A stretch of DNA of 12,705 bases, taken from positions 1 to 12,705 of the forward strand of contig DOUO01000028.1 of NCBI GenBank assembly GCA_003520555.1, written 5' to 3'. The notes under the pieces are model-generated. The model had not been told where the DNA came from. It did no database searches and worked only from the letters and a program-made list of their open reading frames with translations. This document shows positions 7,443-12,705 of the stretch, piece after piece. Numbering within the stretch: the stretch's first letter is position 1; each line of letters opens with the position of its first letter. Source of the DNA: Oscillospiraceae bacterium. GTDB taxonomy: Bacteria; Bacillota; Clostridia; Oscillospirales; Acutalibacteraceae. The translations under genes and the position numbers were made by a program.

Positions 7443-8429
7443 ATGAAAACAGAAGTATTGAGGTTAACAGACGAATGGGATAAAACCTTCCCGAAAAGCG
7501 GCAAGGTAAATCACAAAAAAGTAACCTTTGTCAACCGTTACGGCATAACTCTGGCGGCTGATATGTATGTTCCCGTGAACGCCGAAGGAAAGCTTGCGGC
7601 AATTGCGGTTTGCGGTCCGTTCGGCGCGGTCAAGGAACAATGCTCGGGACTTTACGCTCAAACAATGGCGGAAAGGGGATTTTTGACAATTGCCTTCGAC
7701 CCGAGCTTCACCGGCGAAAGCGGCGGAAGTCCGCGCTATATGGCTTCGCCTGATATCAATACCGAGGATTTTCAGGCGGCGGTTGATTTCCTCTCGGTTC
7801 AGGAAAATGTTGATTCCGAAAAAATCGGAATTATTGGCATCTGCGGCTGGGGCGGCATGGCTCTCAACGCGGCGGCAATTGATACGCGCGTCAAGGCGAC
7901 CGTTGCTTCCACAATGTATGATATGACGCGGGTAAACGCGAACGGATATTTTGACAGCGAGGATAGCGAAGAAAAGCGATATGAAAAGAAATCCGCTCTT
8001 AACGCGCTGAGAACCGCGGAATACGCCAAGGGTGAGTATTCGCGCGCCGGCGGTTGCCTTGAGCTTCCCGTGCCCGACGACGTACCCTTCTTTGTGAAGG
8101 ATTACAGCGAATATTACAAGGGCAGAGCTTACCATGCTCGTTCGCTTAACTCAAACGAGGGCTGGAACACCGTCGGATGTATCTCGTTTATGAACCAGCC
8201 TATTTTGAAATACACAAACGAAATCCGCTCGTCGGTAATGGTAATTCACGGCGACAAGGCTCATTCGTTCTATTTCGGCCGCGACGCGTTTAACGCTATG
8301 TGCGAAAACAGCAAGTACACGGACAACAAGGAGCTCGTTGTTATTCCGGGCGCGGTACACACCGATTTGTATGATAACACAGACGTAATTCCGTTTGATA
8401 AAATGCAGGAGTTTTTCGGCAAAATGTAA
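7443..8429 (+). CDS. Alpha/beta hydrolase, dienelactone-hydrolase/YcjY-like, with atypical nucleophile elbow
   Basis: A 328-residue cytoplasmic alpha/beta hydrolase of the DLH/YcjY-like group, with no signal peptide. Landmarks are the strand with CGPFGAVKEQ (57-66), FDPSFTGESGG (85-95), the elbow G132-I-C134-G-W136-G-G, then D271 (in IHGDKAHS) and H306 (in PGAVHTDLYD). In related YcjY-type proteins the elbow reads like GICASGG, with Ser at the position occupied here by W136. The canonical nucleophile therefore appears replaced, with C134 two positions away. I recall other gut-bacterial members with GICG(F/W)GG, so this is probably a subfamily trait. GGAGG (7431-7435) fixes the start. It is the third gene of the LysR-linked operon. 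Substrate is unknown; the residue change raises doubt about ordinary hydrolase activity. Confidence 0.87.
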   Translation: MKTEVLRLTDEWDKTFPKSGKVNHKKVTFVNRYGITLAADMYVPVNAEGKLAAIAVCGPFGAVKEQCSGLYAQTMAERGFLTIAFDPSFTGESGGSPRYMASPDINTEDFQAAVDFLSVQENVDSEKIGIIGICGWGGMALNAAAIDTRVKATVASTMYDMTRVNANGYFDSEDSEEKRYEKKSALNALRTAEYAKGEYSRAGGCLELPVPDDVPFFVKDYSEYYKGRAYHARSLNSNEGWNTVGCISFMNQPILKYTNEIRSSVMVIHGDKAHSFYFGRDAFNAMCENSKYTDNKELVVIPGAVHTDLYDNTDVIPFDKMQEFFGKM

Positions 8430-8439
8430 GGAGCGGCTT

Positions 8440-9057
8440 ATGAAGAAACTCAGCTTTGTTTTGGCTTCGGTTTGCCTGGCGGTGCTTTTATCCGCGTGCG
8501 GCAGCCCTAAATCATCACAATCAGGCAGCGAACCGCCTACGGCAGGCACCGCTTCGGTAAGCACAGCGGCAACGGAAAAGACCGCCGCCGAACCGACGGA
8601 AAAGCAAACCGCGGCGTCAACGGAAAGACCAACCCCGACGGCAACGGAAAAGCCAACGCAGGCCTTTACCGCAACTCAGGCTGTTGCCGAAACGGAAGCC
8701 AAGTCCTCCGAAATGCGATTGAGTATAAACGGTGAGACCGTTGAGGTCAGGTGGGAGGAAAACGACGCGGTAGCGGCTCTTAAGGAAGCGGTAAAAAACA
8801 GTCCGCTCACAATTAATATGTCTATGTACGGCGGATTTGAGCAGGTAGGCTCGCTTGGCATGTCGCTTCCGCAAAACGACGTCAGAACCACCACCGAAGC
8901 AGGAGATATAGTTTTGTATTCGGGCAATCAAATGGTAGTGTTTTACGGCTCAAACACATGGGCGTATACGCGCCTCGGGCATATCAGCGACAAAACCGCC
9001 CGGGAGCTGACGCTGCTGTTATCAAAAGGAAACGTCACAATCACGCTAACATATTAA
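8440..9057 (+). CDS. Lipoprotein with cyclophilin-like domain
   Basis: A 205-residue predicted surface lipoprotein. The signal peptide ends in lipobox L17-S-A-C20. A Thr/Glu/Pro/Ala-rich linker (21-90) contains four 8-residue repeats starting TEK or TER (45-76). The C-terminal domain (about 92-205) matches the bacterial cyclophilin-like fold (PF18050-like), with LSINGETVEVRW (94-105), MYGGFEQVGSLGMSLP (124-139), GDIVLYSGNQMVVFYG (151-166) and a C-terminal TLLLSKG segment. These proteins are related in fold to prolyl isomerases, but their activity is not established. I chose ATG 8440 because AAGGAG (8428-8433) precedes it; an in-frame ATG at 8395 would overlap the hydrolase gene and put extra residues before the signal peptide. 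It is the last gene of the operon. Confidence 0.88.
   Translation: MKKLSFVLASVCLAVLLSACGSPKSSQSGSEPPTAGTASVSTAATEKTAAEPTEKQTAASTERPTPTATEKPTQAFTATQAVAETEAKSSEMRLSINGETVEVRWEENDAVAALKEAVKNSPLTINMSMYGGFEQVGSLGMSLPQNDVRTTTEAGDIVLYSGNQMVVFYGSNTWAYTRLGHISDKTARELTLLLSKGNVTITLTY
8572..8667 (+). repeat. Four tandem 24-bp units in the linker of the cyclophilin-like lipoprotein
   Basis: The DNA motif ACGGAAA(A)G recurs at 8572, 8596, 8620 and 8644, exactly 24 bp apart. The units encode TEKTAAEP, TEKQTAAS, TERPTPTA and TEKPTQAF. This is a degenerate in-frame tandem repeat forming a flexible spacer between the lipid anchor and the folded domain. Confidence 0.8.
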
Positions 9058-9166: not shown

Positions 9167-10954
9167 TTATATCCTGATAATAAGGTTATTGGCACCGAAT
9201 GTCGCGGTATACTTGATATCCTTAGATGCCTTGAATATAATTGCCATATTTACCTTTTCTTCTTCCGCTTCCTGACTGTCGCCTAACATTTTATAATAAT
9301 CTTTTAAATTAAGCGGCTTGCAGTCGTCTCTCATACGGATTATTAAATCGTCGTCTTTTGCGACAAGCCTGGTGTTGATATTATGTTCCTTTCCGTCACT
9401 GAAACCATGCTCCGCCAAAAATATCGACAGCTCCTCGGTAACAAGTCCGTATAATTTCGCACGTTTTTTATCCGCGCCGTGCTCTAAGGCAAAGGCAATA
9501 GCGATTTTTGACAGCTCCTCTATTTCCCCGGTTGAGGTAGCTATTACCGAAATCTCGTTTTCGGGCGTTGTGCCGAAATCACGCGGCAGCAGCAGCATTT
9601 TATCGCTGAACTTTTTTCCTTCTTTATTCAGCAATATGTAGATAATCGCAATAAGGGAAAGACCTGCCATATTGACAATTTTGGATATCCACGCGCCTTC
9701 GTAACCTATAACCCGAAGCATCAGCAGGGTAATGGGAATAAGGTTGCCGCACTCAATCAAAAAGCTGTAGATATTTGCAAAGCGCAGCCTTTTGATTCCC
9801 ATAAGATAATTACTGAAATTATACACTATTGTGTGGAACGGCAGGGACAGGCAAGACACCATAATACATTGCTTTGCAAGGTCAAGCGCCTGCGGACTGT
9901 CTGATTTTAGGAAAAATACCGCCAACGGGTCGGTAAATACAAACAGCACAACCGTTACAACACTTGTCAAAACCAGCGCGTGAATAAGAGAAAGCTTTTG
10001 AACCAGCTTAATCGCGCTTCTGTCTTCCTCGCCGACAAATACACCGGCAAACGCCATAAGCGTATCGGCGGGCGCGTACCATGCCGCGCGGACGAACACC
10101 GTAATTTGAGAAAAAACGCCGTGCGCCGCCACAAGATAAGGCATGTTAAATGAGGTGAGCAAATTGTTGATAATCAGTCCGCCCAAGGACTTGCTGCCCT
10201 TGGTAACGCCCATAGGAGCGCCGAGTTTGAATATTTCCGCGCAAAGCTTGGGGCTGAAGCCTTTAAATTTAAGCTTGAAAACGGAACGGCTTTTTTTACC
10301 CGCAAAAAACGCGGCGCTTACAAAGAACGGGATAATATATCCGAACGAGGTAGCCAACCCAATCTCAAACATACCTCCGTGTATTACAAAAACAACAAAA
10401 GCGTCCGCGGCGATATCAATAACTGTTGTCAGCACCGATGTTGTGTTTACGCGGTTATACTGACCTTCAATCTGCAGGAACGGCGTGATGACTCTTGTGA
10501 GCGTGTAAAACGGAAATCCGATTAAATATCCGTAAATATACTGCTTTGTCATTTCAGCAATCCCGGGTTCTCTTGCTCCAAGGATAAATATCAGACCTGA
10601 GCAAAATATAAAAGCAAGCAGGGACAGAAGAATTGACAAACCGCCGCTCATTATCAGCGAATCCGAAAACACTCGGTTAGCGTCGTCCAGCTTTCCGGCG
10701 CCTATCATGGAAGAAACCTTATTTCGCGCGCCGTTTGCGACCGCCGAGCCTATCAGCTCAAAAAACATAATCAGCGGCGACATAAAGCCCAATACCGTTA
10801 CTCCGTTTACTCCTATAAAATGGCTGACAAAAATCAAGTCTATCATAGGACCTATTGCTTTTGAAAAATCAGAAACGCCCCATGATACTTCCGACTTGTG
10901 AAACAGTTTTCGGATAATTTTGTTTTCCGCTTTGCCGCCGCAAATCATTTCCAT
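9167..10954 (-). CDS. MATE-family transporter fused to a degenerate RsbW/SpoIIAB-like ATPase domain
   Basis: A 595-residue protein, about 140 longer than ordinary MATE exporters. Residues 1-443 form a multi-helix MATE/MOP-type membrane domain, with landmarks in the first bundle (IGPMIDLIFVSHFIG, 34-48; GSAVANGARNKVSSMIGAG, 69-87) and FLQIEGQYNRVNT (159-171). A short linker leads to a cytoplasmic C-terminal domain (about 455-595) resembling HATPase_c_2 anti-sigma kinases. It has an N-box-like TEELSIFLAEHGF (506-518), a G1-like RMRDDCKPLN (540-549) and a closing strand YTATFGANNLIIRI (582-595). Aligned by eye with SpoIIAB, the general-base Glu is kept (E508), the Mg-binding Asn is F512, and the Gly of DxG is C545. 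Nucleotide binding may therefore be weak or lost. The ATG follows AAAGGTGGG. Substrate is unknown; the fusion suggests control of transport by a partner protein. Confidence 0.85.
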   Translation of the reverse strand: MEMICGGKAENKIIRKLFHKSEVSWGVSDFSKAIGPMIDLIFVSHFIGVNGVTVLGFMSPLIMFFELIGSAVANGARNKVSSMIGAGKLDDANRVFSDSLIMSGGLSILLSLLAFIFCSGLIFILGAREPGIAEMTKQYIYGYLIGFPFYTLTRVITPFLQIEGQYNRVNTTSVLTTVIDIAADAFVVFVIHGGMFEIGLATSFGYIIPFFVSAAFFAGKKSRSVFKLKFKGFSPKLCAEIFKLGAPMGVTKGSKSLGGLIINNLLTSFNMPYLVAAHGVFSQITVFVRAAWYAPADTLMAFAGVFVGEEDRSAIKLVQKLSLIHALVLTSVVTVVLFVFTDPLAVFFLKSDSPQALDLAKQCIMVSCLSLPFHTIVYNFSNYLMGIKRLRFANIYSFLIECGNLIPITLLMLRVIGYEGAWISKIVNMAGLSLIAIIYILLNKEGKKFSDKMLLLPRDFGTTPENEISVIATSTGEIEELSKIAIAFALEHGADKKRAKLYGLVTEELSIFLAEHGFSDGKEHNINTRLVAKDDDLIIRMRDDCKPLNLKDYYKMLGDSQEAEEEKVNMAIIFKASKDIKYTATFGANNLIIRI

Positions 10955-11052: not shown

Positions 11053-11075
11053 TATGAATTGTTTATTAATGTCAA
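11047..11075 (-). promoter_or_regulatory. Promoter of the MATE-type transporter gene
   Basis: Minus strand: consensus -35 TTGACA (11070-11075), exactly 17 bp, then -10 GATAAT (11047-11052), one mismatch from consensus. This should be a strong sigma-A promoter unless repressed. Confidence 0.85.
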
Positions 11076-11161: not shown

Positions 11162-11190
11162 TTGACATCTGTTTTAATATATAATATAAT
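11162..11190 (+). promoter_or_regulatory. Perfect-consensus promoter of the PNP lipoprotein gene
   Basis: TTGACA (11162-11167), exactly 17 bp, TATAAT (11185-11190): a full match to the sigma-A consensus. The start falls near 11197, giving a 64-nt leader with a possible GCGGA/TCCGC hairpin before the ribosome binding site. Confidence 0.9.
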
Positions 11191-11260
11191 TAATGTGAAA
11201 TCTGAAAAACCCGGCGGAGCTTTAGAACTTTTACCGTCCGCAGGTATTAAGGAGAAACAT

Positions 11261-12208
11261 ATGAAAAAACTATTGACCGTATGCTTGGTTTTGGCACTCG
11301 CGCTGGCGTTCGGCGGTTGCGCGGCAAAACAAACGCAATCCTCAAACGAGGACAGTAAATGGGAAAGCGTACAGGTGGAATTTGACGCAGAGGATTATTA
11401 CTCACGGCTGGAAAGCTGCGTTAAGCAGATTCGGGAAAAAACCGATTTTGTACCCGAAATCGCGTTGGTTTTGGGCAGCGGATTGGGCGATTATGCCGAC
11501 AGCGTGAAAATTATTTCCGAAATTCCTTACAGCGAAATCAAAGGTTTCCCGGTTTCAACCGTAGCCGGACACGACGGCACTTTGATTTTTTGCGAGATAA
11601 AAGGCAAAAAGGTAGTTGTAATGAACGGCAGAGTGCATTATTACGAGGGTTATGATATTCACGAGGTTGTACTGCCGTTGCGCGTTATTCACCTTTTGGG
11701 CGCCAAAACGGTTGTTCTTACAAACGCGGTCGGCGCGATTAACGCCGATTACAGCGTAGGCGACTTTGTGTTGAATGTAGATTATATTTCCAGCTTTGTT
11801 CCTTCTCCTCTTGTAGGAGAGAATATTGATAAGCTCGGCGACCGTTTTGTGGACATGACAAACGCCTTTGATACGGAACTGAATTCTGTTGTTGAGGATA
11901 TTGCTAAGCAGAACAAAATCCCCGTTCATAAAGGCGTTATGGTTCAGGTAACGGGTCCGCAGTATGAATCTCCCACGGAAATTAAGATGTATCGCAGTCT
12001 CGGCGCCGACACGGTCGGCATGAGTACGGTGGTGGAAACCATTGCCGCAAGACACATGGGAATGCGCGTTTGCTCAATCAGCTGCATTACCAACATGGCG
12101 GCAGGAATGCAGGAAAAAATATCTCACGAAGAAGTGCAGAATTCCTCCAACAACTCCTCAAAGAACTTTGCGGTTCTTGTCGGAGGTCTGCTTGAAAAAA
12201 TGAAATAA
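11261..12208 (+). CDS. Purine nucleoside phosphorylase with lipoprotein signal peptide
   Basis: A 315-residue trimeric-type PNP, which converts purine nucleosides plus phosphate to free base and ribose-1-phosphate. The first 20 residues are a lipoprotein signal: basic KK, a hydrophobic run and a lipobox ending FGG-C20, then a Ser/Gln/Glu spacer. The enzyme domain (about 45-315) keeps the family sites: GSGLG with S73, H104 (in AGHDG), R124 and H126 (in NGRVHYYEGY), TNAVGAIN (154-161), GPQYES with Y235 and E236, VGMST with M254, N278, and H289. By comparison with human PNP these are the phosphate-, ribose- and base-binding residues, with the Glu/Asn pair of 6-oxopurine enzymes. AAGGAG (11249-11254) fixes ATG 11261. 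PNPs are normally cytosolic, so anchoring outside the membrane is unusual. The gene is monocistronic, with its own promoter and terminator. Confidence 0.9.
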   Translation: MKKLLTVCLVLALALAFGGCAAKQTQSSNEDSKWESVQVEFDAEDYYSRLESCVKQIREKTDFVPEIALVLGSGLGDYADSVKIISEIPYSEIKGFPVSTVAGHDGTLIFCEIKGKKVVVMNGRVHYYEGYDIHEVVLPLRVIHLLGAKTVVLTNAVGAINADYSVGDFVLNVDYISSFVPSPLVGENIDKLGDRFVDMTNAFDTELNSVVEDIAKQNKIPVHKGVMVQVTGPQYESPTEIKMYRSLGADTVGMSTVVETIAARHMGMRVCSISCITNMAAGMQEKISHEEVQNSSNNSSKNFAVLVGGLLEKMK

Positions 12209-12221
12209 CTCAAAAGACATT

Positions 12222-12251
12222 AAAAAAGCAGGTTTCGAAGCCTGCTTTTTT
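12222..12251 (+). terminator. Intrinsic terminator of the PNP gene
   Basis: An 11-bp stem (12222-12232 with 12241-12251, 8-nt loop) with GCAGG/CCTGC core runs into a seven-T tract (12246-12252), starting 13 bp after the stop codon. The matching A-run upstream lets it also act on transcription arriving from the minus-strand gene. Confidence 0.92.
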
Positions 12252-12315: not shown

Positions 12316-12338
12316 ACCGATGTATTTTTACAATCGGT
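12316..12338 (-). terminator. Hairpin overlapping the stop codon of the Ltp-repeat gene
   Basis: On the minus strand ACCGAT-T-GTA pairs with TACATCGGT (9 bp with one bulged T), and TTTT follows at the end of the second arm. The TAA stop codon (12328-12330) lies in the hairpin. A weak intrinsic terminator is the simplest reading. Confidence 0.5.
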
Positions 12339-12705
12339 CAATCGCGTATTGAGCCTGTTCGCTCGTAAACTTTTCGAAAATCAGCTGTTCGCGCAAATCA
12401 TCTTTTGAAAAGTCGGTGTTTTTTAAGTAACCCTTAGCGGTTAATAAAGCCTGCTCATTCCAGTCGGTTTTTAAGTTGTTAACCGCGAAAGAGGCCTGTT
12501 CCTGTGTAAGGTTTTCATAAATTAACTGTTTATACAGCGCTTCCTTGGAAAAAGGCGAGCTTTTCAGGTAGTTCTCGGCGCATTCCAAAGCGTTTTGTAA
12601 TTCCAGCGGAATATCTTTGCTCTGAGTTTCAGATTCTTTTTTGTCAGCCTGCTTGGCAGTATTTTCTGCTGCTTCGGCTGCTTTTTCGGGCATTTCCTCA
12701 ACGGG
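12328..12705 (-). CDS. Ltp-repeat protein (host cell surface lipoprotein family), N-terminus outside the window
   Basis: The visible 125 codons are open to the window edge, so the gene is partial at its 5' end. The ATG at 12691-12693 is in frame, but codons before it (PVEE) continue the same low-complexity style and no ribosome binding site precedes it. After an Ala/Glu/Lys-rich segment come two copies of a motif of about 45 residues, of the pattern ALxxAxxYLKxxxFSKxxLxxQLIxExxTxEQA. This is the PF07553-type Ltp repeat. The second copy ends at the stop. In phage TP-J34 the Ltp lipoprotein of this family blocks superinfecting phage DNA entry, but chromosomal homologues are common in Firmicutes and mostly uncharacterised. 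Whether this one has a signal peptide or membrane segment cannot be seen. Confidence 0.83.
   Translation of the reverse strand, partial: PVEEMPEKAAEAAENTAKQADKKESETQSKDIPLELQNALECAENYLKSSPFSKEALYKQLIYENLTQEQASFAVNNLKTDWNEQALLTAKGYLKNTDFSKDDLREQLIFEKFTSEQAQYAIDRL

Follow-up and report, generated by a model that had tools for sequence, protein, structure and literature searches.

The window, that is, the whole stretch of 12,705 nucleotides analysed here, carries a gene for a purine nucleoside phosphorylase (PNP) with a lipoprotein-type N-terminus. Our best explanation, to which we give a probability of roughly 0.68, is that this low-molecular-weight (trimeric-type) PNP would be a surface lipoprotein of Ruminococcus-like Clostridia that splits nucleosides outside the cell, with the freed base imported and rescued. 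We infer each step of this, from export, lipidation and catalysis to substrate preference, base import and the fate of the sugar phosphate. The earlier note on this DNA had proposed an exported PNP lipoprotein, and as a prediction this finds support in the signal, which relatives conserve, in the tree and in what the genomes contain. Judged from its sequence, the enzyme part is an ordinary PNP; what is unusual is where it is predicted to lie, that a group of relatives conserves this location, and that no cytosolic counterpart was found.

The enzyme domain and its lipoprotein-type signal

The gene and its features are listed in Table 1, and its translation begins with MKKLLTVCLVLALALAFGGC. In profile searches, the window protein exceeded the cut-off of 218 bits for NF006054 and reached 304.1 bits against TIGR01697 (cut-off 197.1), which places it in the low-molecular-weight PNP family, and its sole Pfam match was PF01048 (residues 67-311, 170 bits, cut-off 25). 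It shares reaction type and superfamily with the DeoD-type (hexameric) PNPs, but scored just 19.6 bits against their profile NF004489 (cut-off 230). The score against TIGR01700, the inosine/guanosine-specific PNP profile, was 283.8 bits and lay narrowly below the cut-off of 293.35, so the substrate specificity is unsure.

Table 1. Features of the PNP gene in the window
Feature	Position	Strand	Basis
Sigma-70-type promoter match, TTGACA-17-TATAAT	11162..11190	+	12/12 consensus positions; pattern match only
Shine-Dalgarno-like AAGGAG	11249..11254	+	6 bases 5' of ATG
Lipoprotein-type purine nucleoside phosphorylase gene	11261..12208	+	ORF, 315 aa plus stop
Signal peptide, residues 1-19, ending FGG	11261..11317	+	lipobox pattern, alignment of relatives; model helix 2-16
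Lipobox Cys20 codon, predicted lipidation and cleavage site	11318..11320	+	conserved at 90% or more across the 120 relatives
Variable linker, residues 21-45	11321..11395	+	length and letters vary; model confidence under 50 over 15-36
PNP domain, residues 46-313	11396..12199	+	NF006054, 338.2 bits; Foldseek match to PNPs
Possible terminator of the PNP gene, a hairpin flanked by T runs on either strand	12222..12251	.	terminator-like scan (- strand)

The nearest solved chains by sequence were 8swu, the PNP of Clostridium perfringens (271.5 bits), and 6tk9, that of Thermus thermophilus (238 bits). Nine active-site residues had been named in the earlier note (S73, H104, R124, H126, Y235, E236, M254, N278 and H289); all stand at these positions and have counterparts in 8swu in the sequence alignment, and in the aligned relatives, a set formed by the best 120 of 7,992 found, every one of them is either invariant or conserved at 90% or more. 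Residue 278 is Asn in the window PNP and in 8swu and Asp in 6tk9, and Asn278 presumably points to 6-oxopurine nucleosides as substrate. An AlphaFold2 model built from 21 rows (mean pLDDT 79.6) placed a helix at residues 2-16, with confidence below 50 across residues 15-36, and its domain matched 8swu in Foldseek with TM scores of 0.80 (query) and 0.94 (target). Domain, fold and active-site residues are thus those of the low-molecular-weight PNPs (8swu, NF006054/TIGR01697). What sets the window protein apart from 8swu, whose match begins at query residue 45, is an extra stretch of about 45 residues made up of a lipoprotein signal and a linker.

The signal peptide with lipobox cysteine C20, also claimed from the first reading, was borne out by a PS51257-style pattern, which found a basic start, a hydrophobic stretch and the lipobox Cys at C20; when the first 40 residues were shuffled 20,000 times, the same pattern arose 192 times. 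The strict Gram-positive pattern G+LPP matched 49 of the 120 relatives but not the window protein, whose residue at -3 is F17. A lipobox was called in 103 of the 120 best relatives by our own rule and in 101 by the PS51257-style pattern. Relatives down to 56-59% identity retain the basic start, the hydrophobic stretch and the Cys, while the linker varies. We sorted the 17 relatives without a lipobox call by our own reading: seven are fragments or have odd starts (P0087, P0101, P0106, P0112-P0115), two are longer calls (P0002, P0028), four do show a lipobox, but their start is short or charged (P0056, P0067, P0076, P0077), and four have none (P0102, P0116, P0118, P0119). Among the last, P0118, P0119 and P0102 have a signal-like start with no lipobox Cys, and P0102 reads Phe there. 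Where named in the source, the relatives are called plain 'purine-nucleoside phosphorylase', a name that calls for caution since it hides the location.

Upstream of the gene, the ribosome binding site and the perfect-consensus promoter described in the earlier note were both found again (Table 1). The scan found six promoter-like sites in the region, where shuffled sequence gave 2.6 on average. High expression of the gene, which the earlier note read from the promoter pattern, goes beyond the evidence. An earlier in-frame ATG at 11054 (384 aa) was rejected as the start: it sits 5' of the promoter match, and the relatives align from 11261. Downstream of the gene, the hairpin has a self-complementary stem, and a T run follows it on the forward strand too.

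Distribution of the predicted exported form and genome content of its carriers

To place the exported form among PNPs, 133 PNP domains, with the N-terminal regions excluded, were put into a maximum-likelihood tree of the quick kind, with SH-aLRT support and without bootstrap. Rows with a domain shorter than 215 residues (e.g. the split copy of genome G174) were excluded, and locus L092, whose automatic lipobox call lay upstream of the gene start and was set aside, was entered as unsignalled. The rows comprised 31 lipoprotein forms, 100 unsignalled forms and 2 that start with a signal-like sequence of another type. All 33 exported forms fell into one group of 34 rows (SH-aLRT 98), of which P0116 was the sole unsignalled member, and the remaining 99 unsignalled rows all lay outside it. 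The exported/not-exported label needed two changes on the tree; the unsignalled group likewise needed two, against a shuffled mean of 29.6. Since near-copies make any label cluster, the grouping carries more weight than the shuffle value. The claim that bacterial PNPs of this family are usually cytosolic agrees with the 100 of 133 rows that have no signal peptide, to which the exported group is the exception. The survey of homologues for lipoprotein signals and their phylogeny, suggested as a check in the earlier note, gave a lipobox in most of the best relatives and one supported group. Locus L010 (G008, 7896-8867) is a lipoprotein-type PNP in an Olsenella-labelled (Actinomycetota) assembly with a second PNP; this copy may be a transfer or a stray contig.

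We then turned to 150 genomes drawn from the nearest genus (that of G003) and counted as carriers those with a PNP relative at an E-value of at most 1e-20. There were 23 carriers with one PNP place each, and a second copy of the same type was found in none of them at this threshold; genome completeness is not stated for these assemblies, so absences are provisional. The lipobox-type N-terminus was in frame in all 23. The PNP was split over two frames in three (G006, G174, G285), no start is evident for the G006 copy, and in G169 the expected start position is occupied by ATA. At the level of the wider family, a PNP of the same type was present in 43 of 150 genomes. Among the 30 of these 43 that were read as loci, some of them unreadable by the lipobox rule, the lipoprotein form was seen only in G003 (L092 set aside).

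The carriers were also compared with the other genomes sampled from the genus by plain Fisher tests. DeoD was present in 13 of the 150 genomes (3/23 carriers, 10/127 others) and was not associated with carrier status (p 0.42). The nucleobase permease family PF00860 was found in 21/23 carriers against 85/127 others (p 0.023, a test that ignores kinship and assembly completeness). HGPRT was above the cut-off in 22/23 carriers, and a profile search for the NupC C-terminal domain gave 0/23. BMP family binding proteins, some of which bind nucleosides, occurred in 22/23 carriers, so nucleoside import could still take place. By our reading, at least 15/23 carriers have a second, weaker phosphoribosyltransferase match within about 1.5 kb of the PF00860 match on the same contig, a pairing which resembles the xpt-pbuX layout. 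The carrier G293 has DeoD and a BMP-family binding protein about 2 kb apart (contig C2, 12453-15816), a hint that here a nucleoside importer may be paired with a cytosolic PNP.

An MTA/SAH nucleosidase with a lipoprotein-type signal was found in 9 of the 23 carriers (loci L166 in G003, L171 in G007 and L186-L192) and in the non-carrier G196 (L198). Two of these lipoprotein-type nucleosidases were scored against NF004079 and gave 251.5 and 248.9 bits (cut-off 169). A match to this lipoprotein-type nucleosidase was present in 13 of the 150 genomes, 9/23 carriers against 4/127 others (p 5e-6, by the same plain Fisher test that ignores kinship and completeness). Among the four non-carriers with a match, a lipoprotein N-terminus was seen only in G196; G264 matches without its N-terminus, and the readout gave no N-termini for G257 and G297. 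Signal-less nucleosidases are present beside the lipoprotein-type one.

With regard to gene neighbourhood, purA and purB homologues lie on the PNP strand in 8 of the 25 loci compared, whose PNPs are about 66-71% identical to the window PNP. The gap from the purB stop to the PNP start is 11-12 bases in seven of the eight, and in L152 guaA intervenes. Also near the PNP in these loci are guaA (7/8) and an ogt-like gene (6/8). Scores for the neighbour families were taken as examples only, for purA from L004 and L151 and for purB, ogt and guaA from L005.

Proposed function and alternative explanations

In the proposed mechanism, Sec would export the PNP, and the lipidated Cys20 would hold the enzyme by a flexible tether at the membrane's outer face. 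Using external phosphate, the enzyme would convert purine nucleosides, most likely inosine and guanosine, to free base and (deoxy)ribose-1-phosphate; a nucleobase permease would import the base, and HGPRT or a relative would convert it to the nucleotide. The ribose-1-phosphate would be the weak link, as it may be lost, be dephosphorylated by another surface enzyme, or not be the purpose; its probable loss outside the cell unless processed counts against our best explanation. We counted in favour of this explanation the PNP family and fold matches, the conserved active-site residues, the lipoboxes of the relatives, the one exported group in the tree, the lipoprotein N-terminus of all 23 carriers with no other copy found, the few carriers with DeoD, the presence of PF00860 and HGPRT, the absence of the NupC C-terminal domain and the purB-PNP spacing. 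Against it we counted the G+LPP miss, the BMP family, DeoD in 3/23 carriers, the split copies and the TIGR01700 miss.

Since the PNP carries a membrane-anchoring export signal, nucleoside cleavage is probably outside the cell, and the exported PNP would replace the usual cytosolic enzyme in the lineage. A broader proposal is that cleavage of purine nucleosides has been moved outside the cell in a lineage of Clostridia from gut and rumen, its only trimeric-type PNP, partly together with the MTA/SAH nucleosidase, being a surface lipoprotein, so that nucleoside purines would enter mainly as free bases; we regard this as evenly balanced between right and wrong. If true, models of how purines pass among microbes, and from or to the host, in gut and rumen communities would change: free bases would be released within reach of other cells, and the surface of the cell would display an enzyme for which inhibitors are well studied.

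Textbooks present PNP as a salvage enzyme of the cytosol, and no exported or lipoprotein bacterial PNP was described in the literature searched (titles and abstract openings, among the matches listed). Enterobacterial PNP is reportedly releasable by osmotic shock. PnrA/BmpA-type lipoproteins are also surface lipoproteins that meet nucleosides first, but they bind nucleosides for import without cleaving them and have a different fold; unlike this type (PF02608), the window protein matches PF01048 only. One of them, SP0845, is reportedly the nucleoside-binding lipoprotein of an ABC importer (PMC4331430). Bgp and MtnN of Borrelia burgdorferi are described as exported MTA/SAH nucleosidases proposed to supply purine (PMC7557402). 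Like the window protein, for which the location is predicted, they are members of the phosphorylase/nucleosidase superfamily outside the cytoplasmic membrane, but as described there they are hydrolytic spirochete enzymes acting on MTA and SAH and not phosphorolytic PNPs (PMC7557402).

Three other explanations were weighed against the surface-enzyme reading. The PNP could be made or kept in the cytosol, its N-terminal extension being a mis-called or vestigial leader and translation starting downstream. The in-frame GTG at 11375, just ahead of the PNP domain, would allow such a start; P0116, within the exported group, has no signal, and P0102 has lost the Cys. However, AAGGAG precedes ATG 11261 and not the GTG, residue 39 is not conserved, and the N-terminal signal features persist in relatives as described above; these points count against a downstream start, which the earlier note had named as a refutation, and we consider a cytosolic enzyme very unlikely. 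It is unlikely, to a lesser degree, that the exported PNP mainly acts on other cells or the host, by removing inosine or adenosine signals or feeding neighbours, instead of feeding its own cell. The location would permit this, and the lipoprotein-signal nucleosidase co-occurs in 9/23 carriers, but the purA/purB linkage in eight loci, together with the base permease and phosphoribosyltransferase content, suggests the cell's own purine supply.

The least probable explanation in our estimate is that the exported protein serves as an adhesin or binds nucleosides or another ligand, the PNP fold being kept without its catalytic role. A precedent of sorts is the exported Borrelia Bgp of the same superfamily, which binds glycosaminoglycans besides its enzyme activity (PMC7557402). 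Against such a loss of catalysis, all recognised active-site residues are conserved in the 120 relatives.

Other features of the window

The neighbours of the window PNP differ from those of the purA/purB loci and are a MatE transporter gene (9167-10954, -) and an Ltp-type domain gene (12328-12693, -). The MatE-type protein has 595 residues, and more than 100 residues of its C-terminal part are unnamed by Pfam; this part may be a kinase-type ATPase domain. Within the window's own branch, no neighbour was conserved across the loci except a cyclophilin-like lipoprotein gene (L003, L006). In the window, this gene (8440-9057, +) encodes a cyclophilin-like (PF18050) protein with a lipobox, and its homologues lie at about 7035 in L003 and about 732 in L006. 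It is near the PNP in these three loci and adjoins it, divergently, in L003 and L006. Two more lipobox proteins are encoded in the window, a putative esterase (PF00756; 5882-6856, +) and an ORF with no Pfam match (332-1078, -). A search of the window with Rfam at the gathering threshold found no riboswitch for the PNP gene and only a tRNA, whose gene lies at 200-273 on the reverse strand (RF00005, 55.7 bits).
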